62,525 nucleotides of DNA, from NCBI GenBank assembly GCA_021325385.1, contig JAJPHH010000117.1:1-62525 (forward strand), written 5' to 3'. Positions 1 to 34,668 of this stretch are shown piece after piece. The position numbers were made by a program, and so were the translations under genes. The number at the start of each line of letters is the position of its first letter. Position 1 is the first letter of the stretch. Source of the stretch: Alphaproteobacteria bacterium. GTDB taxonomy: Bacteria > Pseudomonadota > Alphaproteobacteria > Rhizobiales > Beijerinckiaceae. The notes below the pieces were generated by a model. The model was given only the letters and a program-made list of their open reading frames with translations, was not told the origin of the DNA and searched no databases.

Positions 1-89
1 CCGAAAATGCGCGGCTGCATCGGGCCGACCAGCCAAGGCAGGTCGCGCTGGCGCCAGATGTGATGATGCGCGTCGATGATCTGGGTCAT
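1..89 (-). CDS. Amidohydrolase 2 family protein, N-terminus only
   Basis: Only the first 29 or so codons lie in the window; the rest runs off the left edge. They read MTQIIDAHHHIWRQRDLPWL and continue with VGPMQPRIF. The DAHHHIW stretch is the N-terminal metal-binding motif of TIM-barrel amidohydrolases (Amidohydro_2), which hydrolyse lactones, ring-cleavage products and similar compounds. The ATG overlaps the TGA of the upstream VWA gene (ATGA), so it is co-transcribed as the last visible gene of the molybdenum-hydroxylase operon. By context it may hydrolyse the hydroxylated product, but the substrate cannot be read from this fragment. Confidence 0.8.
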   Translation of the reverse strand, partial: MTQIIDAHHHIWRQRDLPWLVGPMQPRIF

Positions 90-1192
90 GCCGCCCTCGC
101 AAGGTCGAGGAGACGCGCGCATAAGGCTTCGGTCGAGCCGCCGTCGGCGATCGCGTCGAGATAGGGCGCCGCCGCCTTGAGGCCGGCGGTGCTCAGCGAA
201 AAATCGGGGTCGGCGGCGAGCGGCGTCAGCCAGACGATCCGCCAGGCGAGCCGGGAAAGGCGCTGCACGGCGTCGCGCATCGCGCCCGGATCGCCGCGTT
301 CGAGCCCGTCGGAAATCACGACGACGGCTGCGCCGCGCGCCAAGGCGGCGAAGCGCGGAACGGCGAGAAAAGCGTTGAGCGCGTCACCAAGCCGCGTGCC
401 GCCGTCCCAATCGGCGACGAGTCGCGAGGCGGCGTCGAGCGCGCGCGACGGCTCCTTGACGCGCAGCGCGCGGGTGACGCGGGTCAGGCGCGTGCCCATG
501 GTGAAGATTTCGGCGGCGTCAGCCGCCTGGGTCACGGCATGGGCGAGCGAAAGATTGGCGCGGGTGCGCTCCTTCATCGAGCCGGACACGTCGATCAGAA
601 GGACGATCCGGCGCTGGCGCGGCCGCCGCGCGCGCCGGCGCAATCGCGCCATTTCGCCGGCATGGCGCATCGCTTCGCGGAACGTGCGCCGCGCGTCGAA
701 GCGCTCGCCGGAGCGCAAAGCGGCGAAGCGGTAGCCGCGCCGCCGCGGCAGCCGGGCGGGCAGCGCCCGGGCGAAGCGGCGGAGCGCCTCGCGATCGTCC
801 CCGGCGACAAAGCGACGCTCGGCCAATTTTTCGGCCGCGGTCGCGCGCTGGCCGGACGAGAACGCATCGTCCCCGAACAGCGGCTCCGGTCCGCCGGACG
901 AATCGTCGGCGGCGCGCGGCGGCTCCTCATCGCTCGGCGCAACCTCCTCCCCTCTCTCGACCGCGCCGAGAAAATAGGCGTCGAACAAAGCGTCGAACTC
1001 GGCGAAGCGCTCGGGCGGCGGGGCCAACGTGGCGCGAGCCGCGCGGCGAATGTCCGCGACGCTACGCGGCCCCAGCAACTCGACCGCATCGAGCCACGCG
1101 ATGGTCTGGTCCGGCGCGACGGCGAAGCCTTCGCGCCGCAAGGCGGCGGCGAAATCGAGGAAAGGCGCGAGCGCTCGGCCGCTCTCGATCAC
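86..1192 (-). CDS. VWA-domain protein, CoxE-like hydroxylase maturation factor
   Basis: 368 residues from a GTG start that overlaps the stop of the MoxR gene (GTGA). An in-frame ATG further upstream would add about 100 Arg-rich residues antisense to that gene and was not used. The MIDAS metal site of the von Willebrand A domain is visible: DVSGSM at about 201-206, the Thr of DGGTRLGD near 266, and ISDGLE near 293-298. An N-terminal helical region precedes it. CoxE-type VWA proteins work with a MoxR/CoxD AAA+ ATPase in activating molybdenum hydroxylases such as CO dehydrogenase. Its place directly after moxR and the hydroxylase genes supports that role here. Confidence 0.85.
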   Translation of the reverse strand: MIESGRALAPFLDFAAALRREGFAVAPDQTIAWLDAVELLGPRSVADIRRAARATLAPPPERFAEFDALFDAYFLGAVERGEEVAPSDEEPPRAADDSSGGPEPLFGDDAFSSGQRATAAEKLAERRFVAGDDREALRRFARALPARLPRRRGYRFAALRSGERFDARRTFREAMRHAGEMARLRRRARRPRQRRIVLLIDVSGSMKERTRANLSLAHAVTQAADAAEIFTMGTRLTRVTRALRVKEPSRALDAASRLVADWDGGTRLGDALNAFLAVPRFAALARGAAVVVISDGLERGDPGAMRDAVQRLSRLAWRIVWLTPLAADPDFSLSTAGLKAAAPYLDAIADGGSTEALCARLLDLARAA

Positions 1193-2070
1193 GCGCCCGC
1201 CTCCATCAAAATCGCGTCGATCTTCGGTTCGACGTGAAGGAGATCGTCCTCGTCCTTGAGCACGACGCCGAGCGAGCGCCTGAACGCCTCCGGCCAGCGC
1301 GCGCCTTGCGCGTTGAGCAGCGTCGCCGCCTCCGCCCATTCGACCGCCTCGGCGACGCCGGGCCGCTTGGCCAACGGCTCGCGCCTGAGCCGGCCGACGG
1401 CGGCGACGACCGCCCGCGCCGTCCGTTCGGCGACGCTCGAAGCGCGCATCGTGATGATCCTCATCTCGCGCTCGGGCGAGGGATAGTCGATCCAATGGTA
1501 GACGCAGCGCCGGCGCAGCGCTTCGTGCAGTTCGCGCGTCCGGTTCGAGGTCAGAACCACGACCGGCCGCTCATAGGCGCGGATCGGCCCGCGCTCGGGA
1601 ATCGAAATCTGGAAGTCGGACAGAAATTCGAGCAGGAACGCCTCGAATTCATGATCCGAGCGATCGATCTCGTCGATCAGGAGCATGGCGCGATCCGGCC
1701 GCCGCAGGCACTGCAGCATCGGCCGTTCGATCAGGAATTCGTCGCTGTAAATATCGGCATGCTCGCCGCCTTCGCGGCGCAGCGCCAGCATCTGACGCGG
1801 GAAATTCCATTCATAAAGCGCGGCCGCCGCGTCGATGCCCTCATAGCATTGCAGGCGAAGCAGGGCGCGGCCGAGCACGCCCGCCAGCGACTTGGCCGCC
1901 TCGGTCTTGCCGACGCCGGGCGCGCCTTCGAGCAGGAGCGGCTTGCCGAGCGCCAGCGCCAGATAGGCCGCGGTCGCGATCCCGTCATCGGCGAGATAGT
2001 ACGCCGCGCGCAGCGCCTCTTCGAGCTCGCGCGGGCTGCTGATGCCGACAATGGTGCGGCGGACCGGCAT
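1189..2070 (-). CDS. MoxR-family AAA+ ATPase, CoxD-like
   Basis: 293 residues. Walker A GAPGVGKT is at 49-56 and Walker B LLIDEIDRS at about 130-138; VVLTSNRTRE later in the protein is sensor-1-like. CoxD, the closest studied relative, is an ATP-dependent chaperone-like factor needed to assemble the active-site metal cluster of aerobic CO dehydrogenase. Here it sits between the molybdopterin subunits and the VWA gene, the usual coxD-coxE order. I infer that it matures the split hydroxylase encoded just upstream. It starts 6 bp after the stop of the molybdopterin C-half gene, so it is in the same operon. Confidence 0.9.
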   Translation of the reverse strand: MPVRRTIVGISSPRELEEALRAAYYLADDGIATAAYLALALGKPLLLEGAPGVGKTEAAKSLAGVLGRALLRLQCYEGIDAAAALYEWNFPRQMLALRREGGEHADIYSDEFLIERPMLQCLRRPDRAMLLIDEIDRSDHEFEAFLLEFLSDFQISIPERGPIRAYERPVVVLTSNRTRELHEALRRRCVYHWIDYPSPEREMRIITMRASSVAERTARAVVAAVGRLRREPLAKRPGVAEAVEWAEAATLLNAQGARWPEAFRRSLGVVLKDEDDLLHVEPKIDAILMEAGA

Positions 2071-2076
2071 GTCGCG

Positions 2077-3099
2077 TCACCGAAACCGCGACGCGGGCGC
2101 GCCGTTCTTGGCCTTCAGCGCGCGCAAGACTTTTTCCGGCGTGATCGGCAGCTCGTTGACGCGCACGCCGACCGCGTTGAAGATCGCGTTGGCGATCGCC
2201 GGCAGAACCGGATTGGCGCACATTTCGCCTGGTCCCTTGGCGCCGAACGGCCCGTCCGGCGCCGGCCGCTCGAGCACCGTGATGTCGTGCGGGCAGATGT
2301 CGCCCGGCCCTGGCATCAGATATTCGTTGAAATCCCGCGGCCCGTTGCGCGTATCCGGATAGTACGGCTCCGGCGTCTCATAGAGCGCATGGCTCATCCC
2401 CATCCAAGCGCCGCCGACAAGCTGCTGCTCGACAAGCTTCGGATTGAGCGCACGGCCGAGCTCGTACGCGCTCGTCATCTTCAGCACGGCGACCTCGCCG
2501 GTCTCGTCGTCGACCTCGACCTCGGCGATCAGGCAGGCATGGGCGTAGCAGGTCGCCGGCGACATTTCGCCAGTTTCCGGATCGACGTCCGACAGCGGCA
2601 CGAGAAAGATGCCGCGGCCCGATATGGTCTTGCCTTGCCGGAACTGCGCCGCGACGGCGACGTCCTTGACCGAGATTGATTTCTGCGGCGCGCCTTTGAC
2701 CCGGATATTGCCGCGCCCGTCCGTCTCGAGATCGCCGGCATCGACTTCGAGCTCCTCGGCCGCCGCCTCCATCATCACGGCGCGCGCTTCGCGCGCCGCG
2801 GCCATCACCGCATTGCCGACGCGATGGGTGCCGCGCGAGGCGAACGAGCCCATGCAATGCGGACCGGTGTCGGAATCGGCGGTGTCGACATAGACGTCCT
2901 CGATCGGCACGCCGAGCGTCTCGGCGCAGATCTGCCGCGTCACCGATTTCATGCCCTGGCCGAGATCGATCGACGACAGAGCCACGGTGAATTTGCCGCT
3001 CGGATTGGAATGGACCAAAGCCTGGCTCGGATCGCCGCCAAGGTTCATGCCGATCGGATAATTGATCGCGGCGACGCCGCGCCCGCGATGCTTGGCCAT
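2077..3099 (-). CDS. Molybdenum hydroxylase, molybdopterin subunit C-terminal half (split gene)
   Basis: 340 residues, ATG at 3099, one base after the stop of the N-half gene. A clear Shine-Dalgarno AAGGAG (3108-3113) sits 8 nt upstream, inside the end of the N-half gene. The protein carries the second molybdopterin-binding domain of the xanthine dehydrogenase family: DLGQGM at 45-50, which contacts the cofactor, and GAKGPGE near 286-292, whose Glu is the catalytic base in the family. It lacks the N-terminal hammerhead domain, which the neighbouring gene supplies. Eubacterium barkeri nicotinate dehydrogenase (NdhL/NdhM) is a known case of such a split. The substrate is unknown, probably an N-heterocycle or aldehyde. 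Confidence 0.88.
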   Translation of the reverse strand: MAKHRGRGVAAINYPIGMNLGGDPSQALVHSNPSGKFTVALSSIDLGQGMKSVTRQICAETLGVPIEDVYVDTADSDTGPHCMGSFASRGTHRVGNAVMAAAREARAVMMEAAAEELEVDAGDLETDGRGNIRVKGAPQKSISVKDVAVAAQFRQGKTISGRGIFLVPLSDVDPETGEMSPATCYAHACLIAEVEVDDETGEVAVLKMTSAYELGRALNPKLVEQQLVGGAWMGMSHALYETPEPYYPDTRNGPRDFNEYLMPGPGDICPHDITVLERPAPDGPFGAKGPGEMCANPVLPAIANAIFNAVGVRVNELPITPEKVLRALKAKNGAPASRFR

Positions 3100-3100
3100 C

Positions 3101-4675
3101 TCAGCGTCTCCTTGTGCCGAACACCGACGAGAAGCGCGTCGCGCCATGCGACGAGCCGGCCGGCGGCGGCGCCGGCGGACGCGGCGGCGGCGCGTCCGGC
3201 GCCGGCGGCTCGCCCGCCCGGTCGTAAGGGATGCGCTGCTGAACGGGCGCCGGCGCAGGCTGCCGCCGCGGCGCTTCCGGCCGCGCCGAAGCATGAGGCG
3301 CAGAAGCTGCGCCGCGCCGGGAGGACATGCGCCTGTACTCCTCGCGGATCGGCCAGTTCGCCTTTTCCGCCGCGACCTGGCAGCATTCGATCAGGGCGCA
3401 ATTCTTCGCCTCGCGGCGATGCGCCTTCATGTCGCCGTCGCGGTACGCATTCAGGATGCGAAACTCGATCGGGTCCATCCCGATCGCCGTCGCCAGCTTG
3501 TCCATCTGGCATTCGAGGGCGAAATCGAGCGCGGTGACGCCGAAGCCGCGCATCGCCGTCGCCGGCGTACGATTGGTGAAGACGCAATAGACGTCGCCAT
3601 AGACGTTCGGGATCGTATAGGGCCCCGGAATGTGCGCCGCGCACTTCACCGCGGCGTAGCTCGACAGGCGCGTATAGGCGCCGCTGTCGAAATAGGCCGT
3701 CACCTTGCGCGCGACGATCCGCCCGTCCCTCATCGCGCCGTCCTTGACATAGATGCGCTCGGCGCCGCGCGGCGAGCCGAACTGCATCTCCTCGTGCCGG
3801 CTGAGCCGATAGCGCACCGGCGCGCCGGTCAGGCGCGCCGCGAGGATGGCGAGCGGCTCGGTCAGCGTGTCGACTTTGCCGCCGAAGCCGCCGCCGACCG
3901 TGCCGCCGATGAAATGGAGCTGGTTCGACGGCATCGCATTGATCTTCGCCGCGGTGTCGAGCGAGAAGAACAAAGCCTGGGTCGAGGTATAGACGACGAA
4001 ACGGCCATTGGTGTCGGGCACGGCGATCGAGCCGTTGGTCTCGGTCGGCGCATGCTCGATCGGCGACATCTGATAGCGATCCTCGACGATCACGTCGCAT
4101 TGGCCGAAGGCGCTGTCGACGTCGCCGTAGCGCAGTTTCTGGTGGTCGTATTTGCCGTAATATTCGAACGTGTTCTTCGGGTAGGTCGCATTGACCGAGA
4201 CCGCGCCCGGCTTCAGCGCCTCCTCGACGTCGAACACCGCCGGCAGCGGATCGTAAGAGACCCGCACCAAAGCGAGCGCCTCCCGCGCCGATCGTTCGCT
4301 CGTCGCGACAATGCCGAGGATCGGCTCGCCCTTGTAGCGCACGACGTCGCTCGCCAGAGACGGCTCGTCGTCCTTGCCGAACTGGATCAGGCTGAGCAGC
4401 GTGTTGAGGTTGACCGGCACGTCGGCGGCGCGAATGATCCGCTTCACGCCGGGCGCGCGCTGAGCCGCGGCGTCGTCGATCGAGCGGATGCGGGCATGGG
4501 CGTGCGGACTGCGCAGGATTTTCAGATGCAGCAGCCCGGCGAAGCGGTGATCGTCGTAGAAAGCCGAAGCGCCGGTGACATGGCCGAGAATGTCCTGGCG
4601 CTGCGTCGGCCGGCCGACCTCTTTGAGATTGTCGTCGCGTTCGTCGGCGAAAATATCTTTGCGGAACTCCAGCAT
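3101..4675 (-). CDS. Molybdenum hydroxylase, molybdopterin subunit N-terminal half (split gene)
   Basis: 524 residues. The start at 4675 is preceded by AAGGAG about 9 nt upstream; a longer in-frame start would overlap the 2Fe-2S gene by 62 bp. The a/b hammerhead domain lies at about 20-150 and the first molybdopterin-binding domain after it, with GGGFGGK at 261-267 and MRGFG at 375-379. The last 70 residues (about 455-524) are a Pro/Ala/Arg-rich tail replacing the linker that joins the halves in ordinary subunits. The C-half begins one base after the stop in another frame with its own RBS. Length and clean domain boundaries argue for a true two-gene subunit. Confidence 0.88.
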   Translation of the reverse strand: MLEFRKDIFADERDDNLKEVGRPTQRQDILGHVTGASAFYDDHRFAGLLHLKILRSPHAHARIRSIDDAAAQRAPGVKRIIRAADVPVNLNTLLSLIQFGKDDEPSLASDVVRYKGEPILGIVATSERSAREALALVRVSYDPLPAVFDVEEALKPGAVSVNATYPKNTFEYYGKYDHQKLRYGDVDSAFGQCDVIVEDRYQMSPIEHAPTETNGSIAVPDTNGRFVVYTSTQALFFSLDTAAKINAMPSNQLHFIGGTVGGGFGGKVDTLTEPLAILAARLTGAPVRYRLSRHEEMQFGSPRGAERIYVKDGAMRDGRIVARKVTAYFDSGAYTRLSSYAAVKCAAHIPGPYTIPNVYGDVYCVFTNRTPATAMRGFGVTALDFALECQMDKLATAIGMDPIEFRILNAYRDGDMKAHRREAKNCALIECCQVAAEKANWPIREEYRRMSSRRGAASAPHASARPEAPRRQPAPAPVQQRIPYDRAGEPPAPDAPPPRPPAPPPAGSSHGATRFSSVFGTRRR

Positions 4676-4688
4676 CGAGCGAAGCTCC

Positions 4689-5168
4689 TTAAGCGCTGCG
4701 ACGGTCGCCGGCGCGCGAAGCGGCGAGGATCGCCTCGATGATCGGCTCATAGCCGGTGCAGCGGCAAATATTGCCGCCGATCGCCTCGACGACCTCTTCG
4801 CGAGTCGGCGATGGCTTGCGATCGAGCAGCGCCTTGGCGGCCATCAACATGCCCGGCGTGCAATAGCCGCATTGCGCGGCGAAATGTTCGATGAAGGCGG
4901 TCTGCAACGGGTGAAGGTCGGGTCCGCGCCGCAGCCCGGCGACGGTCTCGATCGAGCGGCCGGCGCAAGTCTCTGCGAGCGTGATGCAGGCGAGGCGAGG
5001 CGCGCCGTCGATCAGCACCGTGCAGGTCCCGCAGGTTCCTTGCCAGCAGCCGCCCTTGACGGTGAGGTCGCCGACCGTCTCGCGCAAAGCATCGAGAAGA
5101 TTGGCGCCGCCTTCGACGAAGGCGGCGACCTCCTCGCCGTTGAGGGAAAATTGAACCGGAGTCCTCAT
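4689..5168 (-). CDS. Molybdenum hydroxylase, 2Fe-2S subunit
   Basis: 159 residues, the normal size for the small subunit (CoxS/NdhS type). The plant-ferredoxin-like cluster ligands are C41, C46, C49 and C61. The second cluster has C100 and C103 (CGYCTPGM) and C135/C137 (CRC). It passes electrons from the molybdenum site to FAD. It lies between the FAD and molybdopterin genes with 12-13 bp gaps, giving the order FAD, FeS, Mo on the minus strand. Confidence 0.95.
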   Translation of the reverse strand: MRTPVQFSLNGEEVAAFVEGGANLLDALRETVGDLTVKGGCWQGTCGTCTVLIDGAPRLACITLAETCAGRSIETVAGLRRGPDLHPLQTAFIEHFAAQCGYCTPGMLMAAKALLDRKPSPTREEVVEAIGGNICRCTGYEPIIEAILAASRAGDRRSA

Positions 5169-5180
5169 CGGCGTCTCTCG

Positions 5181-5999
5181 TTAAGCGCCCGCGCCGAGCA
5201 GGAGCCGGCGCAGATGGACGGGAAGGATTTCGCGCCGCCACCAGGCGCTGGCGATGGCGTCGTCGACCGGCGCCGCGCCTTCGGCCGCGACGGCGACGGC
5301 CGGCGCGACGCCCGCGGCGTCCAGCGTCCGCCCTTCCAGGGCGCGCTCCGCCGCCTTCGCCCTGACCGGCGCACGGTCCATCGCGCCATAGGCGATCCGG
5401 GCGCCGCTGATCCTGCCGCTGGCCAGCGGCAGCTGCGCGGCGATCGATAGAACGGCGACGCCTTTCGGCCGGATTCGCGCGACTTTCACGAACCGAAACG
5501 AGTCGGCCGCGGGCCTCCTGAACGAGACGCCAGTGACGAGTTGCCGCCCGCCGCGGTCGCGGCCGGCGAGGAATTCTTCGATCGGCTGTTCGCGCTGGCC
5601 GAAGCCGCCGGCGATCGCCACAATCGCATCGAGCGCCAGCAGCGCGGTCGCGAAATCGCCGTAAGGACTATGGGCGAAGAGATTGCCGCCGATCGTCGCG
5701 GCCTCGCGGATCGCCGGGCCGCCGATCGTGCGCGCGACGGGATGCAGAAAGGCGAGATCGCGCTCGGCCAGGATCGCGGCCATGGTCGCGCCGGCGCCGA
5801 GCTCGATGCGGCCGGACGAAACGGCGAGCCGCGCCAGCGCCGGGTCGGTCGATCGGACGATCGTCGCGACATCCGGATCAGCCTCGTTGACCATCCGCAT
5901 CAGGATCGTGCCGCCGCCGAAGAAGCGGGCGCCGCGTTCGGCGGAAAGCGCCGCCGCCGCTTCGCCGATACGGCCGAACGTTTTGACCGCGACCGTCAT
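5181..5999 (-). CDS. Molybdenum hydroxylase, FAD-binding subunit
   Basis: 272 residues. The FAD pyrophosphate loop GGGTILMR is near 28-35 and TIGGNLFAHSPYGD around 100-115 is the second FAD-binding stretch; a CO-dehydrogenase flavoprotein C-terminal domain follows. It accepts electrons from the 2Fe-2S subunit and hands them to an external acceptor. Its ATG overlaps the stop of the upstream SRPBCC gene (ATGA), so translation is probably coupled. Confidence 0.93.
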   Translation of the reverse strand: MTVAVKTFGRIGEAAAALSAERGARFFGGGTILMRMVNEADPDVATIVRSTDPALARLAVSSGRIELGAGATMAAILAERDLAFLHPVARTIGGPAIREAATIGGNLFAHSPYGDFATALLALDAIVAIAGGFGQREQPIEEFLAGRDRGGRQLVTGVSFRRPAADSFRFVKVARIRPKGVAVLSIAAQLPLASGRISGARIAYGAMDRAPVRAKAAERALEGRTLDAAGVAPAVAVAAEGAAPVDDAIASAWWRREILPVHLRRLLLGAGA

Positions 6000-6448
6000 G
6001 CGCTCGCCTCCGCGCCTTCGACGCGCGCGCGGATCGCGGCGAGCCCCGCGTCATAGATGTCCTCGCCGACCATACGCGCCATTTCCGCCTCTTCGCCCCG
6101 CCGCGTCGAGAAAGTACATCGCCAATCGCAGAAGGTCCGGTCGCCGTCCGTCACCGGCGCCAACCGCATATGCGCGACATAGTTGAACAGCGGCACGGGC
6201 GTGTCGAGCAGGCAGTAGGAGAAGCTCTGTTCGAGATCGGAGAGCGTGAGCAGGCGCTCGCGCAATTCCGATCCGTCGCGCAAGAAGAAGCGGCGCACGC
6301 AGCCGAGCCGATCCGACGAATAGCCGCGCTCGATCGCGCTCTTGGCGACGGCCGGATGCCAACGATCGTGGCCGTTGAAGTCGCGGATCACCGCCCAGAC
6401 CCGATCAGTCGGCGCGTCGAACACGGTCGAGCGGACGAGGCGGATCAA
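5996..6448 (-). CDS. SRPBCC-family protein (second of a tandem pair)
   Basis: 150 residues with the START/polyketide-cyclase-like pattern: VFDAPTDRVWAVIRDFNGHDRWHP at the N-terminus, then FFLRDGSELRERLL and a C-terminal helix. These proteins form a hydrophobic pocket that binds small molecules. It resembles the following gene product in RVWAxxRDFNGxxxWHP, LGCVRxFxLRxG and TDGDRTF, so the two arose by duplication. Cox clusters often carry an SRPBCC protein (CoxG), but this pair looks closer to the polyketide_cyc2 group. Ligand presentation to the hydroxylase is an inference. Confidence 0.8.
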   Translation of the reverse strand: MIRLVRSTVFDAPTDRVWAVIRDFNGHDRWHPAVAKSAIERGYSSDRLGCVRRFFLRDGSELRERLLTLSDLEQSFSYCLLDTPVPLFNYVAHMRLAPVTDGDRTFCDWRCTFSTRRGEEAEMARMVGEDIYDAGLAAIRARVEGAEASA

Positions 6449-6451
6449 TGT

Positions 6452-6889
6452 TCAGCCTCCGAAATGCCGCTTCAGGGCGTCGAAACCGCCCTGAAAGACG
6501 CCGCCGCCGATCGACGAAACGAGCTCGGCCTCGCGATCCGGCGCGCAGTCGAACTCGGCCGTCCACTCGACGAAGGTCCTGTCGCCGTCGGTGATCGGCG
6601 TCAGGCGCAGGGTCGCGACGTAGTTCTCGACGCCCATCGGCGATTCCAGGATCGAATACGTACAGAACAGATCATAATCGGAGAGGCCGAGCAGCTTTTC
6701 GCGAATCCGGTCGCCGTTGCGCAGGCGGAAATCGCGCACGCAGCCGATCTTGTCCGAGGCTTCGCCGTTTTCGATCCGGCTCTCGGCGATGGAGGGGTGC
6801 CAGGACGGCAGGCCGTTGAAGTCGCGCACCCGCGCCCAAACGCGATCGGAGCGCCCGTTGACCACGCTCGAGACATAGACGCGCGCCAT
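6452..6889 (-). CDS. SRPBCC-family protein (first of a tandem pair)
   Basis: 145 residues, a paralogue of the next gene downstream. Shared features are DRVWARVRDFNGLPSWHP at the N-terminus, KIGCVRDFRLRNGDRIREKL, and RLTPITDGDRTFVEW before the C-terminal helix. The fold predicts a small-molecule binding cavity; no catalytic residue can be assigned. It starts 6 bp after the flotillin-like gene and ends 3 bp before its paralogue, so it belongs to the same operon. Confidence 0.8.
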   Translation of the reverse strand: MARVYVSSVVNGRSDRVWARVRDFNGLPSWHPSIAESRIENGEASDKIGCVRDFRLRNGDRIREKLLGLSDYDLFCTYSILESPMGVENYVATLRLTPITDGDRTFVEWTAEFDCAPDREAELVSSIGGGVFQGGFDALKRHFGG

Positions 6890-6895
6890 CGCCGC

Positions 6896-10141: not shown

Positions 10142-10185
10142 CTTGAACTCCCTCCCCTGCCCCGCTTCACGAGCGCGGGCGGACT

Positions 10186-11037
10186 TTATGTTGTTCTTTG
10201 ACCCTGATGTTTGTTGATCGCTTTGAACTTTGCAACCTGCTCTCTGAGCGCGCGCTCGACCGGCAGGCGCTCCATCGAAGAGGCGCCGTAGAAACCGTGG
10301 CAATGGCGAGCGCGCGCCAGGACATATTCCGCATCGCCGGGCTCGGCGATCGGGCCGCCATGGACGAGGACCAGAATGTCCGGATTGATCTGCAGCGCCG
10401 CCTCCGCCATCGCGTCGGTCAGCGCTGGGCATTCCTCGAGCCGCACGGAGGTCTGCGCGCCGATCGAGCCGCCGACCGTCAAGCCGAAATGGCAGACGAC
10501 GACATCCGCCCCGGCCCGGGCCATCGCCGCCGCCTCTCCGGGATCGAAAACGTAAGGCGTGGTCAGGAGATCGAGACTATGGGCTTTGGCGATCATCTCG
10601 ACCTCCAAGCCATAGCCCATGCCGCTCTCTTCCAGGCCCGAACGAAAGCGCCCGTCGATCAGGCCGACAGTTGGAAAATTCTGCACGCCGCTGAAGCCGA
10701 GGCGGCGGACTTCGCCGAGGAAATCCTCCATGCGGCGGAACGGATCCGTGCCGCAGACGCCGGCGAGGACCGGCGTCCGCTTGACGATCGGCAAGACCTC
10801 GCGCGCCATCTCGACGACGACGCTGTTGGCGTCGCCATAGGGCATCATGCCGGCGAGCGAGCCGCGCCCGGCCATGCGATAGCGCCCGGAATTGTAGATG
10901 ACGATGAGATCGGCGCCGCCCGCCTCCTCGCCTTTGGCGGAGAGGCCCGTGCCGGCGCCGGCGCCGACGATCGGCTCGCCGCGCGCCTTCATTGCGTTGA
11001 ACTTGGCGAGAATGTCGGAGCGTTTGAGGGCCGGCAT
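10186..11037 (-). CDS. TIM-barrel protein, phosphoenolpyruvate hydrolase-like (PF09370 type)
   Basis: 283 residues. The whole length matches the TIM-barrel family annotated as phosphoenolpyruvate hydrolase or signal-transduction TIM barrel: [20 protein letters not shown] near the N-terminus, [24 protein letters not shown], and [15 protein letters not shown]. The same fold forms the C-terminal half of the tomato antiviral protein Tm-1, whose N-terminal half is a UPF0261 domain. The gene directly upstream, 3 bp away, carries a UPF0261 domain, so the two halves of Tm-1 are adjacent here. The enzymatic reaction is not established. Confidence 0.8.
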
Positions 11038-11040
11038 GCG

Positions 11041-13257
11041 CTATCCTCTCGCCTGCCGGCGGGCGGCGCGAACGCCGACCAGCCGGCGAAATTCGGCGAC
11101 GATTTCCGCCGCGAAGCGCGGGTCGTTGATATGCGCCGGCGTGCGGATCAGGCGCCGCGCGCCGGTCTGGCGCGTCGTCGCTTCCAGCGATTTGAACAAA
11201 GCTTCGTCGGCGGGTGGGTCATGGAAGGGACGCCCGGGCGCATCCAGCGCCGAGACGCCGCCGGCCGGCAGGAAAAAGCGCGTCGGCCCCTCCATCCGGT
11301 TGAGGCGCTCGCCGATCCATCGGCCCATCTGCGCATTCTCCTCCGCCGTCGTGCGCATCAGCGTGACATTGGGATTGTGCGCGTAGAGCGTGCGGCCGCG
11401 ATAGCGCTCCGGCACGCTGTCCATGGCCCCGAAATTGACCATGTCGAGCGCGCCGCACGAACCGATATAGGGAATTTTCGTCCGCGCGATCGCGCCGAAC
11501 CGATCCTCGGTCGCAGGCAGGACGCCGCCGAAGAGAAAATCGCAGACTTCGGTCGTGGTGATGTCGATGACGGCGATCAGCGCGCCGGAATCGACCAGCT
11601 TCTCCATCGATTGGCCGCCGGTTCCGGTGGCGTGGAACACCAGGCATTCGAAATCGTCCGCCAACGCCGCCGAGACCGCCTGCACGCAGGGCGTCGTCAC
11701 GCCGAACATGGTGAGGCCTATCGCCGGCTTGACGCTGCGGCGCGACGGCGGCGGCGCCCGTTCGGCGCTCGAAGCGCGCGTCTTCACCATGCCGACGAGC
11801 GCGGCCGCGCCATTGGCCAGAATTTGCCGGGACACCGAGTTCAAACCGGAAACGTCGGTCACCGAATAAAGCATCATGATGTCCGACGGCCCGACGTACC
11901 GCGAGACGTCGCCCGAGGCGACCGACGAAATCAGCACTTTGGGCACGCCGATCGGCAGCGCGCGCATCGCCGGCGCGACCAGCGAGCCGCCGCCCGAGCC
12001 GCCGGCCGAGATGATCCCGGCCACCGGGCCCTGCCGCTTGATCCAGGCTTCGAACGCTTCCGCCATCGCCGCGATCGCCGCGCCGCGGTCGCCGCTGAAC
12101 ACGCCGTTCGGCCCGCCGCGAGAATAGGCGGCGACATGATGCGGCGGCACATCGGCCGACGACGGGGCGCCCGACGTCGACAAATCGACCAGCAAAGTTC
12201 TGACGCCCGCCGCGGCGATCTCGTCGCGCAGGAAACGCAGCTCCGACCCCTTCGTATCGAGCGTGCCGGCGACGATCACATGGCCGGGACCGCTGCGCGA
12301 AACCGGCCTGATCTCGACGGCCGGCGCCGGCGTCGCCATGGCGGGCGGCTCGGCCGCGGCGGTGCGGGTGCGCGCGGCGGCTTCGATCTGAGCGGCGGGA
12401 ACGGGCTGCGACCAGCGCGTCGGCGCAACCGGGTTGGAATTGTAGACGCGGAACACCCCGCGCGATCTCGTCGTCGCGCGCGGCGCCGTCCCGCCGGTCG
12501 GTTCGGCAGCCTCCGGCGCAACCTCCTCCTCGCCGAGCCGCCCGACGCCGAGCAGCCTTTGCTGCAGCTCGCGGTCCGCCTCCAGCCGCGCCGAATCCAT
12601 GATCCGGTTGACCCGGCCATTGACCATGATCGCGACTTTGTCCGCCACCGCGCAGGCGACGCCGATATTCTGCTCGATGACGAGAACGCCGACATCGCCC
12701 TGCTCGGCGAGGCCCATCAGCATCTCTTCGACTTGCTCGACAATGACCGGCGCGAGGCCCTCGGTCGGCTCGTCCATGATCAGCAATCGCGGATTGAGCA
12801 GCAGCGCGCGGGCGATGGCGAGCATCTGCTGCTCGCCGCCGGAAAGTTGGTTGCCGCGGTGGCTGCGCCGCTCGGCGAGGCGCGGAAACGTCTCGTAGAT
12901 GCGCGCGATCGTCCATTGCGCGCCGTTCTTGCCGGCGGCGAGCCGCAAATGCTCGTCGACCGTGAGCGACGGCCACAGGCGCCGGCCTTGCGGCACATAG
13001 CCGAGGCCGAGCTGCGCAATCGCCGCAGGGGCGCGGCCGATCAGCTCTTCGCCCAAAAAGCGGATCGAGCCGCTCGCCGCCGGAGTCAGGCCGACGATCG
13101 CCTTGCACAACGTCGTCTTGCCCATGCCGTTGCGGCCGACCAGCGACAGCGCGCCGCTCTCGAGCTTCAGGTCGACGCCTTGCAGCGCGTGGCTGCGGCC
13201 ATAGAAGACGTTGAGGCTTCTGATCTCGAGCAGGGCGGCTTGCCGGCGCTCAGCCAT
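11041..13257 (-). CDS. Fusion: LivF-type ABC ATPase plus UPF0261/Tm-1-like domain
   Basis: 738 residues. Residues 1-240 are a branched-chain-type ABC ATPase: Walker A GRNGMGKT (41-48), signature LSGGEQQ (138-144), Walker B LLIMDEP (158-164). A Pro/Ala/Thr-rich linker spans about 245-325. Residues 326-733 are a UPF0261 domain, beginning [21 protein letters not shown] and containing GGSGGGSL, which resembles a nucleotide-binding loop. The frame is open throughout. LivF normally ends near 235-250 residues, so the second half is a true addition that ties a Tm-1-like domain to the transporter. It overlaps livG by 8 bp and is followed 3 bp later by the TIM-barrel gene. Confidence 0.88.
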
Positions 13258-14032
13258 GGCCGCCTCCGAGATAGAGCCGCTGCACTTCCGGATCGGTCTC
13301 GATCTCGGCCGGCGCGCCTTCCTTGAAGATGCGGCCGTTATGCATCATCGTCACGCTCTCGACGACCCGCAGCGCGACGTCCATATCGTGCTCGATGATG
13401 ATGTAGCCGATATGGGAAGGCAGAGCGGTGAGGATCGCGACGAGATCGCCGCGCTCGGTCGGCGACAGGCCGGCGGCCGGCTCGTCGAACAGGATGAAGC
13501 GCGGCGCCCCGGCGAGCGCCAGCGCGATTTCGAGCTGGCGCTGCTGGCCATGCGCCAATTCGCCGACCAGACGATCGGCGACGTTTTCGAGATGGACCAG
13601 CGCGATCAGATCGGCGACGGATTGCATGATCGCCTCGCCGGCCCGCGTGCGCAGGAAGGAAAAGCGACCGCGCGAGACGCCGCGACAGGCGAGGTAGACG
13701 TTCTCGCGTACTGTGAGACGCTGGAACAGCAGCGAGATCTGGTACGTGCGGCGCAAGCCCCGGCGGATGCGCTCGTGCGGCGGCAGAATCGTCACGTCCT
13801 CGCCGAAGAAGCGGACCGTGCCGGACGTCGGCGGGAAATCGCCGGTCACGCAATTGAGCAGCGTCGTCTTGCCGGCGCCGTTCGAGCCGAGCACGGCGCG
13901 GCGCTCGCCGGGCCGCACGCTGAGCGTGATGTCGGTCAAGGCGGCGAGCGCGCCGAACAGCCGGGTGACGCCGCGCAATTCGATGGCGGCGCCGGCGCCG
14001 GCGGCGGCCATGCGTTCGGCGATCGTGCTCAT
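13250..14032 (-). CDS. livG: Branched-chain-type ABC transporter ATP-binding protein LivG
   Basis: 260 residues from the ATG at 14032, which overlaps the stop of livM (ATGA). It has Walker A GSNGAGKT, a degenerate signature [17 protein letters not shown] in place of LSGGQ, Walker [13 protein letters not shown] and the switch His in IIEHDMD. It energises LivHM-mediated import together with the LivF half of the fusion protein. HAAT-family transporters of this kind carry amino acids, amides, urea or aromatic acids, so the name does not fix the substrate. Confidence 0.92.
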
Positions 14033-15087
14033 AGGCGCCGGCTCCCGCCATTGGCGCGTAGGCGCGCCGACCAGCGCCGCCAAAGGCCGATCACCCCGTC
14101 GGGCGAGAACAGGACGATGAGCAGAAAGCCGAGCCCGATGATCGTCTGAAAGCGCCGCCCGTCCAACCCGACCGCCAGCAGCGCGTCGAGGGCGAAGGTC
14201 CGCAAGATGACGTAGATGATCGCGCCGACAAAGGCGCCGATCGGATGGCCGAGCCCGCCGACCACGGCGATGACCAGAACATCGATCACCCGCTCGAAAC
14301 TGATCGAGAAAGGCGAGATCTGATTGTTGAGCCAGACCAGCAAAACGCCGCCGATCGCGGCGATCAGAGCCGCGAAGGCGTGGGCGGCGACGCGATGCGC
14401 AGCGACGTTGTAGCCGATCGCCTCCATGCGGCGCGGGTTGTCGCGCACGCCTTGCAAGGCGAGGCCGAACGGCGCGCGCGAGATGTAGACCACCGCGCCG
14501 TAGCTCGACGCGGCGAAGAACAGGATCAGGTAGTAGAGCGGGACCGGCGCCCGCCAATTGACGCCCCAGAAATGCGGCGCCGGGATCGTCGTGAAGCCGT
14601 TGAACCCGTTGAAAATCGGCCAGTTCTGCAGGGTCAGGTAGAAGAAGGCGGCGGCGATCGCCAGCGTGATCATGATCGTATAGATGCCCTCGGTGCGCGC
14701 CGACAGCGCGCCCGACAGCGTGCCGAAGACGACGGCGATCGCGATCGCCAGCGGCGTCGCCACCCACCAGGGCCAGAACAGGCTGATCGTCGGCAGCGAG
14801 CTCGCGCCGAGCACGGCGACCATGTAGCCGGCGACGCCGGCGATCGTCATCTGCGCCAGGCTGACCATGCCGCCATAGCCGGCGAGAAACATCAGCGACA
14901 GCGCGATCATGCCGAGCGCCAGAGACCAGCCGACGATCTGGTCGAGCAGGAATTCATTGGCGACCGCCGGCAGCAGGACGAGGATCAGGCCGAGCAGAAG
15001 GATGGCCGCATGCCGCGAGACCCAGCGCGACAGCGCGCCGCCGCGCGGCGCGGCGATCGAGGGGGTCGAGGTCTCGGTCAGCGCCAT
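14029..15087 (-). CDS. livM: Branched-chain-type ABC transporter permease LivM
   Basis: 352 residues with about nine hydrophobic segments. The cytoplasmic coupling region is in the family-typical stretch GLALQGVRDNPRRMEAIGYN, and GGLGHPIGAFVGAI follows near the C-terminus. ATG immediately follows the livH stop. It forms the inner-membrane channel with LivH. Confidence 0.92.
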   Translation of the reverse strand: MALTETSTPSIAAPRGGALSRWVSRHAAILLLGLILVLLPAVANEFLLDQIVGWSLALGMIALSLMFLAGYGGMVSLAQMTIAGVAGYMVAVLGASSLPTISLFWPWWVATPLAIAIAVVFGTLSGALSARTEGIYTIMITLAIAAAFFYLTLQNWPIFNGFNGFTTIPAPHFWGVNWRAPVPLYYLILFFAASSYGAVVYISRAPFGLALQGVRDNPRRMEAIGYNVAAHRVAAHAFAALIAAIGGVLLVWLNNQISPFSISFERVIDVLVIAVVGGLGHPIGAFVGAIIYVILRTFALDALLAVGLDGRRFQTIIGLGFLLIVLFSPDGVIGLWRRWSARLRANGGSRRL

Positions 15088-16149
15088 TCAGCCTCTCCCC
15101 AACAGTCCCTGCGGACGGATGGCGAGGACGAGGACCATGATCAGGAAGGTCACCATGGTCGCGTAATTCTGGAAATAGACGAGCCCGAACTGTTCTGAGC
15201 AACCCATGATCAGCGCGCCGAGCGCCGCGCCCGGGATCGAACCCATCCCGCCGACGATCACCACCTGGAGCGAGGCCAGGAGAAAGTGCGAATCTTCGCC
15301 GAGCGAGATCGATTGGAACGTGCCGCCGACGATCCCGGCCATTCCGGCCAAGCCGGCGCCGAAGGCGAAAACCAGCGCGAACAGGATCTGCACCCGATAG
15401 CCGAGCGCCGACAGCATGTCGCGATCGTCGACTCCGGCGCGGATCATCACGCCGATTCGGGTGCGATGCAGCGCGAGCCACATGCCGACGCCGATCAGCA
15501 CGGCGGCGGCGAAGATGACCAGCCGCACGCGCGGATATTGCAGGAACACCGCCTCGCCGCTCGATTTGACCGCGACGACGATCGGCGTCGGCGTCGGGCC
15601 GTTCAGATAATCCGGCGTTGCGATCTGGATGGCGTTGCCGCCCCAGACCCAAACCATCAGATCGGAGAAGATGATCGCGAGGCCGAGCGTGACCAAGGTC
15701 TGGCGCAGGTCCTCGCCCTCCATGCGGCGAAAGATGAGGATCTGCATCGCGACGCCGACGACGGCGCAGCAGATGAAAGCGACGATGTAGCTGAACAGCC
15801 ACGAGCCGGTCCAGTCGGCGGCCTCGTAGCCCATATAGCCGCCGAACAGGTACAGCGATCCATGCGCCAGATTGACGTTGCGCATCAATCCGAAAATCAG
15901 GGTGAAGCCGGCGGCGACGAGAAAATAGAGGCCGCCCAGGGTGACGCCGTTGAACAGCGCGTTGACGAACAGCCGTTTGCGGCCGAACCATTCCTCGAAT
16001 CCGGCCGGCCACGGCGCGAGAATGAGCCAGAGCGCGAGCGCCGCCGCCGCGGCGATGACGAGCGCGGCGAGCGGCCGGCGGGCGATCCACCGCGCCAAGG
16101 CGCCGCCCCGCGCCGCGACCGCTTCGTCACCGCCAAAAGCCGTCGTCAC
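15088..16149 (-). CDS. livH: Branched-chain-type ABC transporter permease LivH
   Basis: 353 residues from a GTG start with a strong GGGAGG site upstream. It has an N-terminal hydrophobic segment, then the LivH core beginning NGVTLGGLYFLVAAGFTLIF, the coupling stretch RTRIGVMIRAGVDDRDMLSALGY (23 residues spanning about 216-238) and GGMGSIPGAALGALI near the end. It is the first gene of the minus-strand operon and lies 72 bp from the AraC regulator gene. Confidence 0.92.
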   Translation of the reverse strand: MTTAFGGDEAVAARGGALARWIARRPLAALVIAAAAALALWLILAPWPAGFEEWFGRKRLFVNALFNGVTLGGLYFLVAAGFTLIFGLMRNVNLAHGSLYLFGGYMGYEAADWTGSWLFSYIVAFICCAVVGVAMQILIFRRMEGEDLRQTLVTLGLAIIFSDLMVWVWGGNAIQIATPDYLNGPTPTPIVVAVKSSGEAVFLQYPRVRLVIFAAAVLIGVGMWLALHRTRIGVMIRAGVDDRDMLSALGYRVQILFALVFAFGAGLAGMAGIVGGTFQSISLGEDSHFLLASLQVVIVGGMGSIPGAALGALIMGCSEQFGLVYFQNYATMVTFLIMVLVLAIRPQGLLGRG

Positions 16150-16221
16150 CCTGATCCTCCCATGGCCGAGCCTAGCCGAGGGGCGGCGCCGAGACGTGCT
16201 CGGCAGTCTGATTTTCTGAGC

Positions 16222-17049
16222 CTATTCGCTCACCACCCGCGCGATCGTCCGATAGAGCGTCGGCGCGATGCCGACATGGGCGGAAAAGAAATGCGTGAAA
16301 TGGCTTTGTGAGGAAAAGCCGAGCTCGTAGCCGATGTCGGTGATGGAGGCCTGCGAGCCCATCAGCCGGTCCAGCGCCCGCTCGATGCGCATCGTGTTGG
16401 CGTAGAGCGCGGGCGTGACGCCGGTGTTTTCGCGGAACAATTTGAAGAAATGCGGCCGCGACAGGCCGGCGTCGCGCGCCACCGCGTTGAGCTCGATCCC
16501 CTGACCAAGGCCGTGATCCAGAAGGTGCAGCGACTTGCGGACGCGATAGTCGATCGCCGCCGCCGGCCGCGCGCGCAGCTCGGCGCGATCGCAATTCGTC
16601 CAGGAATCATCGAAGCTTGCGTCGAAGAGCTGGCTGAGGCCGCGATCGACGACGCGATAATTGGCGCCGCTGACGAGCGCGTCGGCGAGGCTCGCGGCGA
16701 TCGCGCCGATCGTCGCCCCGACCCGGATCGCATTGTCGCCGAAACGCAGCTTGCCGCGGCCCTGCTGGTCGCGATCGAGCCAGCGATCCGAAAGGTAGGC
16801 GACCAGGAAGACGGACGGCTCGTCGCCGGGCGACGGGTGAAACGAGTGGGGCTGCCAGGGATTGATCGCGACGCCGCCGATTTGATCGACCCGATGCGGG
16901 ACCTCGTCGATCGTCACGATCGCCGGCGGGCCGCCGAGATGAAAGGTCAGATGGCCTTCGCGGTGCGCATGCGTGCGCATCGGCCGGCAGAGCCGATACA
17001 CCGTCACCCGGCCGAACGACCCGTGACAGACCGCCAGAGCGGTGTTCAC
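16222..17049 (-). CDS. AraC-family transcriptional regulator
   Basis: 275 residues if it starts at GTG 17049, which has GGGAGAGG about 6 nt upstream; an ATG at 17064 would add five residues but has no clear ribosome binding site. The N-terminal cupin-like sensing domain includes MRTHAHREGHLTFHLGGPP. The C-terminal double helix-turn-helix runs from about HGLGQGIELNAVARDAGLSRP and includes ITDIGYELGFSSQSHFTHFF. It lies between the liv operon and the divergent binding-protein gene, and probably controls both in response to the imported compound. Confidence 0.9.
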   Translation of the reverse strand: MNTALAVCHGSFGRVTVYRLCRPMRTHAHREGHLTFHLGGPPAIVTIDEVPHRVDQIGGVAINPWQPHSFHPSPGDEPSVFLVAYLSDRWLDRDQQGRGKLRFGDNAIRVGATIGAIAASLADALVSGANYRVVDRGLSQLFDASFDDSWTNCDRAELRARPAAAIDYRVRKSLHLLDHGLGQGIELNAVARDAGLSRPHFFKLFRENTGVTPALYANTMRIERALDRLMGSQASITDIGYELGFSSQSHFTHFFSAHVGIAPTLYRTIARVVSE

Positions 17050-17359
17050 CAGGTCCTCTCCCATGTACGTCGTTGTTTTGTCTTACGATTAAACGACAGC
17101 CTGACCGGATTGACAAGGGCCGCGGCAGCCGCGGCGCCCGACCCCGCCTGCCTCGCCGGCGGCTGAGAATCAGACTGGCAGACACGCGGTCGCGCCCCTT
17201 CGCCCGGGAGCCTGGACTTGTGGCGCAAGGCCCGCCGCTGATACGCTCCGGGCAAGGCCGGCGCGGAGCGAAGGCTTTCGCTCCGAAGCGCAACGCCATG
17301 AACATCCGGCCGTTTCAGAACGCCGCTTCGCGCGTTCGAACATGAGGAGGGAAGCCCCT
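17050..17359. promoter_or_regulatory. Divergent regulatory region between araC-type gene and binding-protein gene
   Basis: About 310 bp without a gene. A dyad GTCGTT (17069-17074) and AACGAC (17092-17097), 17 bp apart, lies just upstream of the regulator start and is a candidate operator. An aggagg site at 17345-17350 serves the binding-protein gene. No convincing -35/-10 pair was identified; the remainder is GC-rich without visible structure. Confidence 0.4.
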
Positions 17360-18634
17360 ATGCGTAAGGGAACTGGTATTGCGGCCGCGGCTGCGATCGC
17401 GGTTGCGTTCGCGGGGACCGGCGCGGCCAAATCCGCCGAGAAAATCAAGATCGGCGTCACCGCGACGCTCGAAGGCACATATACCGTGCTCGGCGAAGAC
17501 GGCATGCGCGGCTACGAGCTGGCGGTCAAAGCCCATAACGGCATGGCCGGCGGCAAGGAGATCGAGACGATCGTCGCCTCGACCGACGCCAGCCCGGATT
17601 CGGCGGTGCGCGCCGCCAAGAAGCTCGTCGAGCAAGACAAGGTCGACGTGCTGATCTCGCCGCTCTCCGGCGCCGAGGGCATCGCGGTCAAGGATTACTC
17701 GAAGACCCAGCCGCAGATCACCGTGATCAACGCCGCCTCGGGCGCGCTCGAGACGACCTATGTCGATCCCTCGCCGACCTTCTTCCGCTACAATATGGAC
17801 GGCGCGCAATGGCACGCCGGCCTCGGCGACTACATCTACAACGTCAAGCACTATAAGAAGATCGCGACCGTCGCCGAAGACTACGCCTTCACCTACACGC
17901 AGGTCTTCGGCCTCGCCCTCGAATATTGCCAGAAGGGCGGCGAGATCACCAAGCGCTTCTGGGTGCCGCTCGGCACCAAGGACTTCTCCTCGGTGATCTC
18001 GTCCCTGCCCGACGACGTCGACGCCATCTATCTCGGCCTCGGCGGCGCCGACGCGGTGAACTTCCTCAATCAGTACCAGCAGGCCGGCGGCAACGCCCAT
18101 CTGGTCGGCGGCTCGATCATGGTCGACCAGACCGTGCTGTCGTCGAAAGGCAAGGCCAAGGAGGCGCTGATCGGCACGGTCGCGGCGAGCGGCATGGCCG
18201 ACGCCGATCCGAGCCCGAAATGGCAGGCTTTCGTCAAGGCCTATCAGGACATGCCGAAGGAAGGCTATTTCAAGAACGCCTTCGCCAGCCCGTCCCTGCT
18301 CGCGATCAACTACTACAATTCGGCCGACGCCGTCTTCAAGGCGCTGGACGAAGTCAAGGGCGACTTGAGCGACGGCAACAAGAAGTTCCGCGAAGCGCTG
18401 AAGAGCATGGTGCTCGATGCGCCCAACGGAAAGATCACGCTCGACGAGAACCGCCAGGCCATCGGCACCAACTTCGTCACCGAAGTGGTCAAGGACGACA
18501 AGGGCGATCTCGTCAGCAAGGTGGTCAAGGTCGTGCCCGACGTCCAGCAGCGGCTCGGCTTCTCCAAGGAGGTCTTCGACAAGATCGGCCTGCCCGGCCG
18601 CGACAACCCGCCCTGCAAGAAGTCGTACCCTTGA
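17360..18634 (+). CDS. ABC transporter substrate-binding protein, branched-chain amino acid type
   Basis: 424 residues from ATG 17360, chosen because aggagg lies 9 nt upstream; an upstream ATG would add six residues. An N-terminal signal peptide (MRKGTGIAAAAAIAVAFAGT, then GAAKSA) directs export. The mature protein starts EKIKIGVTATLEGTYTVLGE, the type-I periplasmic fold of LivJ/amide-binding proteins. It is the only binding protein near the LivHMG-F genes and is transcribed divergently from them, so it is the likely ligand receptor. The ligand cannot be deduced from the sequence. Confidence 0.92.
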   Translation: MRKGTGIAAAAAIAVAFAGTGAAKSAEKIKIGVTATLEGTYTVLGEDGMRGYELAVKAHNGMAGGKEIETIVASTDASPDSAVRAAKKLVEQDKVDVLISPLSGAEGIAVKDYSKTQPQITVINAASGALETTYVDPSPTFFRYNMDGAQWHAGLGDYIYNVKHYKKIATVAEDYAFTYTQVFGLALEYCQKGGEITKRFWVPLGTKDFSSVISSLPDDVDAIYLGLGGADAVNFLNQYQQAGGNAHLVGGSIMVDQTVLSSKGKAKEALIGTVAASGMADADPSPKWQAFVKAYQDMPKEGYFKNAFASPSLLAINYYNSADAVFKALDEVKGDLSDGNKKFREALKSMVLDAPNGKITLDENRQAIGTNFVTEVVKDDKGDLVSKVVKVVPDVQQRLGFSKEVFDKIGLPGRDNPPCKKSYP

Positions 18635-21605: not shown

Positions 21606-21637
21606 TCCCCAGCCCTCAGCCCAATCAAGTCGGCCCG

Positions 21638-21745
21638 CCAGTGTCATTCCCGCGAAAGCGGGAATCCGGACAACCGCCGCGTCTCAAGCCTCCAGTGTCA
21701 TTCCCGCGTAAGCGGGAATCCAGACAACCGCCGCGTCTCAAGCCT
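21638..21745. repeat. Tandem 54-bp repeat, two copies, each with a REP palindrome
   Basis: Units 21638-21691 and 21692-21745 match at 52 of 54 positions. Each holds GTCATTCCCGCG, A or T, AAGCGGGAATCC, a near-perfect palindrome, followed by a 27-bp unique stretch. It is a recent tandem duplication in the gap between the methyltransferase and helicase genes. Confidence 0.9.
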
Positions 21746-21769
21746 GGCTCAGTCTGGATTCCCGCTTGC

Positions 21770-21879
21770 GAGCGTGTGAAGAAATCGTTTGTTCTTGGAA
21801 CGTCCCGGAATCGAACTGGAATCAAACGAGGGCCAACCGGAGAACAAAACCCAGGCAAGGGGGATTTCTTCACACGCTC
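21770..21879. repeat. MITE-like inverted repeat element
   Basis: A perfect 17-bp inverted repeat, GAGCGTGTGAAGAAATC at 21770-21786 and its complement at 21863-21879, encloses 76 bp. Outside it, half-REP sequences GGATTCCCGC and GCGGGAATGACA continue the symmetry to about 21750-21898. No transposase lies within it. With the tandem repeat it fills the 311-bp gap between the methyltransferase and the helicase. Confidence 0.75.
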
Positions 21880-21916
21880 TTGCGCGGGAATGACACGATC
21901 GGCTCACAGGACGCCA

Positions 21917-24817: not shown

Positions 24818-24837
24818 ACCCCTGCTTCCTTCGTATT

Positions 24838-25307: not shown

Positions 25308-25316
25308 AGGTGCTCT

Positions 25317-25376: not shown

Positions 25377-25384
25377 TCTTGGCG

Positions 25385-25600: not shown

Positions 25601-25678
25601 GGCTCGTCCTTTCGGTAGCCGCGGTCGAAAAAGGCGTTATGAACGGTTTCGCGTCCGATCGCCTGCCACAACCCTCCT

Positions 25679-34666: not shown

Positions 34667-34668
34667 CG

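Follow-up and report, generated by a model that had tools for sequence, protein, structure and literature searches.

A conserved operon on a Beijerinckiaceae contig unites a LivF-UPF0261 importer fusion, a flotillin and a split molybdenum hydroxylase

What single task could bring an ATP-binding cassette (ABC) importer, a pair of proteins related to plant Tm-1, a flotillin and a molybdenum hydroxylase together in one row of genes? The question is raised by contig JAJPHH010000117.1 of assembly GCA_021325385.1 (Alphaproteobacteria bacterium, Beijerinckiaceae), analysed here over its full 62,525 nucleotides (hereafter the window, which is the entire contig C55 of a 5.35-Mb draft genome). Gene calls in the window come from Pfam profile scans of translated frames. 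Its first 17 kb carry, on the minus strand, a Liv-type importer whose ATPase LivF is fused to a UPF0261 domain, a TIM-barrel protein of the PEP_hydrolase family, a long flotillin, two SRPBCC proteins and a hydroxylase with its large subunit in two chains. This gene set is a conserved unit with separable blocks, and the flotillin tracks the importer fusion, not the hydroxylase. The reading that we favour, and regard as evenly balanced between right and wrong, is that of a conserved uptake-and-catabolism operon combining an importer with a tethered kinase, a dedicated flotillin and oxidative ring opening. In the putative order of steps, the importer would take up a small hydroxylated compound, probably aromatic or lactone-forming; the UPF0261 domain, tethered to LivF by a flexible PTRW-type linker, would phosphorylate the incoming compound and so trap it inside; the partner with the phosphoenolpyruvate (PEP) mutase fold would act on the phosphorylated product; the flotillin would keep the assembly of importer and kinase in the membrane; the split hydroxylase, presumably matured by MoxR and CoxE, would oxidise the ring; and downstream lactonase- and amidase-like enzymes would open it.

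A named genome collection was scanned with the UPF0261 part, which gave 190 confirmed relatives, and the best 80 loci were kept. Fifteen domains from LivH to CoxE, with LivF and UPF0261 counted apart, were scored at identity thresholds set in the script, and all 15 appeared in identical order and strand in 45 of these 80 loci. The 45 are not independent, because many of them are from Bradyrhizobium, and the loci had been picked by UPF0261 similarity; the gene set occurs in many strains of that genus, and in full also in genomes of different families. Seven of the 80 hold a version whose last gene is the second SRPBCC gene, with fusion and flotillin and without a hydroxylase match, and the remaining 28 are truncated at a contig or stretch end, lack the fusion or are partial. 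It is almost certainly wrong that the blocks are independently placed and are neighbours in this contig by chance: although some fusions lack the hydroxylase and some the PEP_hydrolase as a neighbour, the identical order of 15 parts, repeated across families, already contradicts this idea. A literature search, with most subscription papers outside its reach, found no paper on an ABC-UPF0261 fusion or on the whole operon. One locus labelled as a Terriglobia metagenome-assembled genome (MAG), L039, has a UPF0261 part 79% identical to that of the window and a synteny that groups with Hyphomicrobiales; it is probably a misbinned contig.

A survey of 100 genomes (83 genera, the source genome included) locates the seams between the blocks. 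UPF0261 is present in 28 genomes and the LivF fusion in 16, in one of them (G052) divided over two contigs. The C half of the hydroxylase large subunit was matched at E <= 1e-70 in 13 genomes, 12 of which have the fusion, once (G083) on a short contig separate from the hydroxylase. In the thirteenth, G074, the hydroxylase, moxR, coxE and amidohydrolase genes lie near a MalK-type importer, an aldo-keto reductase and a MocA-type oxidoreductase, with PEP_hydrolase 11 kb further on; no fusion match was found in this genome, nor any flotillin match genome-wide at E <= 1e-40. Fusion and flotillin without a hydroxylase match occur in Variovorax and in G001, G008, G009 and G047 (G008 is apparently the same record as locus L110). 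This second version carries, in Variovorax, Rhodospirillales and others, an FAA hydrolase, an alpha/beta hydrolase and an Amidohydro_1 enzyme in place of the hydroxylase. An earlier note on this DNA, made from the letters alone, had described a minus-strand operon with a Liv importer, a Tm-1-like pair, a repeat flotillin and a split hydroxylase, and the Pfam scans recovered each of these elements. The neighbourhood search that it proposed bears out the co-occurrence and also finds the blocks separable in some relatives; its membrane-organised uptake and hydroxylation system holds as a conserved unit whose flotillin follows the fusion, but not as an indivisible one, since the hydroxylase block comes and goes in the loci and genomes just named. 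Also in Variovorax, L121:18214-19686 encodes the second SRPBCC protein as a fusion with a zinc-type alcohol dehydrogenase.

The flotillin (6896..10141, minus strand, 1081 aa; Band_7 and Flot) has a hydrophobic N-terminus, as judged by eye, an SPFH domain, a long repeat region, reflected in 132-bp repeats of the gene at 8724-9196, and a Flot domain. The SPFH and Flot domains are those of bacterial flotillins in general, but here the gene lies in a catabolic operon, and the Pfam matches of the window scans include no NfeD-type protein, which we take to be the usual partner of a bacterial flotillin. Flotillins of whole islands are 735-1226 aa long, whereas the other matched flotillins are mostly of 546-639 aa, with long exceptions outside islands in G082 (753 aa), on contig C85 of G097 (759 aa) and in G241 (993 aa). 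In the 100-genome survey the flotillin lies downstream of the fusion, directly or past PEP_hydrolase, in 16 of 16 fusion genomes, G001, G008, G009 and G047 among them. In 299 genomes of the phylum, again with the source genome included, nine long UPF0261 frames, all of them fusions, were found, and all nine have a flotillin; the LivF half was verified in each of the seven that were new. Pooled, the two surveys place a flotillin beside the fusion in 23 of 23 distinct genomes, whereas none of the 36 unfused UPF0261 copies of both listings has a flotillin match in the sequence around it, which was read for up to 4 kb each way (for 33 of the 36 this included 3 kb or more downstream; G035, a copy cut at a contig start next to a flotillin, was left out). 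These searches scored the best seven candidates per genome in the smaller survey and the best two in the larger, and other copies were rechecked by tblastn. The fetched loci, which overlap in part, contain 79 fusions with a flotillin and four without, two of the four being at contig ends; L144, which begins within the fusion, L103, at a contig start, and L083, with a long spacing, were scored as unfused copies beside a flotillin and were left uncounted. The flotillin therefore tracks the importer fusion, which fits a role in membrane-organised uptake. Since it stays with the fusion when the hydroxylase or PEP_hydrolase is missing, the smallest recurring unit is the importer, the fused UPF0261 domain and the flotillin.

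The importer itself is complete. The permease genes livH (15088..16149, GTG start) and livM (14029..15087), both BPD_transp_2, livG (13250..14032; ABC_tran, BCA_ABC_TP_C) and the 738-aa fusion (11041..13257; ABC_tran at residues 25-165, UPF0261 at 326-494, UPF0261_C at 510-726) lie on the minus strand, and the periplasmic binding protein gene is divergent, as had been noted before (17342..18634, plus strand, alternative ATG at 17360; Peripla_BP_6, E 9.6e-52). An AraC-type regulator gene (16222..17064, minus strand; HTH_18) stands 72 bases ahead of livH. The solved sequences nearest to the binding protein are 4zpj, 4ey3 and 4evq, a group that presumably includes aromatic-acid binders. Two BPD_transp_2 permeases, LivG, LivF and a Peripla_BP_6 protein are also the parts of an importer of the branched-chain amino acid type; the difference is that LivF here bears a predicted enzymatic domain on a linker of about 90 residues.

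This linker is strongly variable except for one short stretch, a 15-residue peptide encoded at 12397..12441 (minus strand) that emerged on comparing linkers across fusions. In hydroxylase-type loci, xNPxxPTRW[ST] is read in 52 of 53 linkers, the exception being PNRWS. The looser pattern P[TN][RK]W[STG] occurs in 77 of 83 fusions versus about 0.0004 per shuffled linker, a figure that serves as a guide only, because the loci are related. Four of the six misses have a cut LivF part, with the linker incompletely compared, and the other two read PTRWA and FTRWN; seven further fusions all have the four-letter core (five PTRWS, two PNRWN). The only unfused Liv neighbour that was read, the LivF beside UPF0261 in L107, ends without the peptide. 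The conserved PTRW/PNRW peptide, newly found in this analysis, may be a docking element. An assembly error as the origin of the fusion was rejected, as a single frame holds both halves in many genomes. A UPF0261 tree of 60 rows (47 fused, 13 unfused) was built leaving out copies with less than 2.5 kb downstream, unfused frames cut at a stretch start, near-copies above 90% and the three uncounted loci L083, L103 and L144; on it the fusion state needs three changes, which is compatible with one or several origins, and the rows nearest to the window are Xanthobacteraceae and Hyphomicrobiales MAGs.

What might the tethered domain do? Both Pfam halves of UPF0261 are in one chain (PF06792, 198 bits; PF23189, 310 bits; curated cut-offs 27). 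An AlphaFold model of this part, with a predicted local distance difference test (pLDDT) value of 87.5, matches the fold of Tm-1 at a template-modelling (TM) score of 0.85 with 42% identity and that of 9mpy, titled Saro_1862 with bound acetovanillone, at TM 0.62-0.66 with 31% identity. The likeness to MarK/UPF0261 (Saro_1862, 9mpy) and to the N-terminal domain of plant Tm-1 (3wrw-3wry) extends over the full-length domain and is one of the same fold, but here UPF0261 follows an ABC importer ATPase and PEP_hydrolase is a separate protein. In plant Tm-1-like proteins UPF0261 is fused to a TIM barrel instead, and the two families are described as co-evolving, according to the accessible portion of PMC5028733. 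In Novosphingobium aromaticivorans, acetovanillone catabolism begins with MarK, a single-component kinase, as stated in the available part of PMC13101465. By analogy, the UPF0261 part of the fusion is a probable small-molecule kinase.

These likenesses could also point to a pathway of known type, the hydroxyphenylethanone (Hpe/Acv/MarK) catabolism of lignin ketones, here with an added importer. The acetovanillone bound by the UPF0261 relative would suit it, as would the family group of the binding protein with its presumed aromatic-acid binders. The pathway as set out in the available part of PMC13101465, however, comprises a kinase, a three-component carboxylase and a phosphatase, and does not include a molybdenum hydroxylase or lactonase-like genes. 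Of its parts the kinase-like domain alone turned up, both in the operon, outside which the genome was not searched for the whole set, and in the annotated stretch of Yoonia, where the gene table is incomplete. The lack of a carboxylase and a phosphatase at the operon is in itself compatible with the pathway, because the same available text counts just 52 of 836 cases in which the genes for kinase and carboxylase form a cluster. On these grounds the Hpe pathway reading is weakened, and we consider it improbable. AcvAB and HpeHI were rejected as candidate UPF0261 kinases: HpeHI is an ATP-grasp and swivel-domain pair in the accessible part of PMC12167813, and acvABCDEF is homologous to hpeHICBAD so far as the accessible text goes.

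The TIM-barrel partner (10186..11037, minus strand; PF09370, E 5e-128) gave a model with pLDDT 89.7. Its nearest fold, 2p10 (E 2.6e-36, 62% identity), places it in the PEP mutase/isocitrate lyase superfamily; methylisocitrate lyases follow from E 1.6e-9 at TM about 0.58, and dimethylmalate lyases are also matched. On a rival reading, UPF0261 and the TIM barrel, in a conserved catabolic operon, together make a conventional enzyme, be it a kinase, a ligase or a lyase, whose substrate is sugar-acid-like or lactone-forming; the LivF fusion would then do no more than ensure co-production, and the flotillin would serve general membrane order. This is a real possibility, though one that we rather doubt. 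Unfused UPF0261-PEP_hydrolase pairs adjoin MalK/Ugp-type importers, cupin and Gfo/Idh/MocA genes (L122 of NGR234, L123 of Terrarubrum); the surroundings of the G074 hydroxylase are of the same sort; and in Yoonia the downstream enzymes include fuconolactonase- and gluconolactonase-like proteins and an aldehyde dehydrogenase like alpha-ketoglutaric semialdehyde dehydrogenase, all with scores under the NCBIfam curated cut-offs. If the role of the flotillin were general, however, it would not be expected beside every surveyed fusion and beside no unfused copy, and the linker peptide, kept in fusions and absent from the single unfused neighbour in L107, likewise speaks against it. Unfused pairs recur on rhizobial plasmids, as in L122 (pNGR234a) and L125 (pSymA), and UPF0261 matches appear in 343 of 72,556 plasmid records.

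The favoured operon would next oxidise its substrate. Downstream of the flotillin, all on the minus strand, are the SRPBCC proteins SRP2 (6452..6889; Polyketide_cyc2, E 1.3e-26) and SRP1 (5996..6448, TTG start; Polyketide_cyc2, E 6.8e-22), for which the structure-sequence search returned no solved relative with an informative role. They are followed by the flavin adenine dinucleotide (FAD) subunit of the hydroxylase (5181..5999; FAD_binding_5, CO_deh_flav_C), its 2Fe-2S subunit (4689..5168; Fer2, Fer2_2), the N half of the molybdenum-cofactor large subunit, with a proline-rich tail (3101..4750, likely start 4675; Ald_Xan_dh_C, MoCoBD_1), the C half (2077..3099; MoCoBD_2), a MoxR/CoxD-like AAA ATPase (1189..2070; AAA_5) and a CoxE-like VWA protein (86..1192, GTG start; VWA_CoxE, E 1.2e-50). 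MoCoBD_1 and MoCoBD_2 are thus on separate chains, beside separate FAD and 2Fe-2S chains. The halves are split in 66 of 66 pairs and never form one open frame: a stop divides a shared frame in 24 pairs, and in 42 the halves occupy different frames (the frame measured for the N half of L059 is also interrupted, close to its beginning). The C half in the window starts at an ATG of its own, one base past the TGA of the N half, with AAGGAG upstream. A frameshift was accordingly rejected. The closest solved sequences are 3hrd_A for the N half and 3hrd_B for the C half, and the split is a known arrangement, since each half best matches the corresponding chain of this enzyme, which we take to be the nicotinate dehydrogenase of Eubacterium barkeri. 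There the large subunit likewise consists of two chains spanning the same parts; the present enzyme is proteobacterial, has moxR and coxE and bears the long proline-rich tail on its N half. Presumably, moxR (CoxD-like) and coxE also stand beside L/S/M-type subunits in the aerobic carbon monoxide dehydrogenase (cox) operon; what differs here is the split large subunit, the SRPBCC proteins matching Polyketide_cyc2, and the sequence AMRGFG versus the CoxL loop, as we assume that motif to be.

The operon does not end with the contig. Over 107 bases the window start is identical to the start of C6, another contig of the genome, and the Amidohydro_2-like gene, of which the window holds only the first 89 bases (1..89, minus strand), continues there (L166:19-906). 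The earlier count of fourteen genes from livH to the amidohydrolase is therefore right in number but not in extent: it is livH to coxE that make up the fourteen whole genes, and araC is also in line. The spacing among the 15 minus-strand genes ranges from -62 to +72 bases; the -62 applies when the N half of the large subunit is begun at its upstream ATG and becomes +13 with the start at 4675, the gap between PEP_hydrolase and flotillin is 44 bases, and the amidohydrolase ATG overlaps the coxE stop. On C6 the complete amidohydrolase is followed by a gene of the metallo-beta-lactamase (MBL) fold and by a gluconolactonase-isochorismatase (SGL-isochorismatase) fusion gene. The same trio lies after coxE in Yoonia and in G024, G052, G072, G078, G080, G094, G095, G096 and G099; in Shinella the downstream position after coxE gave no MBL match. 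The Yoonia MBL-fold protein resembles 4-pyridoxolactonase and acyl-homoserine lactone lactonases, with scores under the curated cut-offs. The heterocycle first proposed as substrate is only one candidate, as the lactonase-like enzymes and the sugar-importer contexts of relatives fit a phenolic or a sugar-like substrate just as well.

Several observations weigh against an importer with a tethered kinase acting on a phenol. Saro_1862 is probably MarK, but this equation is one that we infer ourselves, and the UPF0261 part of the window is only about 30% identical to Saro_1862. Unfused UPF0261 has sugar-type importers, cupin and MocA genes as neighbours, and phenols are therefore not the necessary substrates of the family; the enzymes that resemble fuconolactonase and gluconolactonase point the same way. 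The gammaproteobacterial MAGs L080 and L085 have a fusion without a flotillin or PEP_hydrolase match, with 10 kb available downstream. The pair of UPF0261 and PEP_hydrolase is not always adjacent, as in G009, G047, G149 and G214 the flotillin follows the fusion directly, with no PEP_hydrolase between. The co-occurrence of flotillin and fusion may count few events, because the tree allows one or several fusion origins, and neither the carboxylase nor the phosphatase of the known pathway that begins with a kinase turned up in the Pfam scans of the operon, the C6 part included. For another kinase, the accessible part of PMC9618137 proposes that phosphorylation may maintain a gradient favouring uptake, and a tethered kinase would for that reason serve uptake well. 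A bolder form of the favoured reading builds the substrate kinase into the ABC importer, as the ABC equivalent of group translocation, with uptake and phosphorylation coupled through a covalent tether, a PTRW docking peptide and a membrane domain maintained by the dedicated flotillin; this we think somewhat unlikely. Should the tether couple uptake to phosphorylation, a primary transporter would have a new means of trapping its substrate, and a bacterial flotillin would gain a concrete client. The UPF0261/TIM-barrel pair, fused in land plants as Tm-1-like proteins, gains a testable biochemical context, and the binding protein would identify the ligand, which in turn would identify a candidate substrate of the kinase.

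Further along the window, a second catabolic cluster occupies 32659-50221. It comprises an ABC importer whose ATPase has two domains (32659-37434), hydantoinase A and B (37508-41386), the carboxyltransferase domains CT_A_B and CT_C_D (42645-44478), a biotin carboxylase (44495-45862), a LysR regulator (46926-47831, plus strand) and an unsplit large subunit of the xanthine dehydrogenase type (47858-50221), and it resembles what we take to be a 5-oxoprolinase-type carboxylase system. The biotin carboxylase was considered as the missing partner of the kinase-like domain and is weakened in that role: among 15 other genomes only G072 and G097 have matches at 67-69%, and only in G072 does the match lie on the contig of the island, about 15 kb away. 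Adjoining the operon, the stretch 19524-25784 encodes a UvrD-like helicase with an extra N-terminal part, a DNA methylase (N6_N4_Mtase) and a PDDEXK_3 protein at a GC content down to 60%, possibly an island of the restriction type. Ahead of the helicase gene, at 21638-21745, stands a tandem pair of 54-base repeats that are 96% alike.

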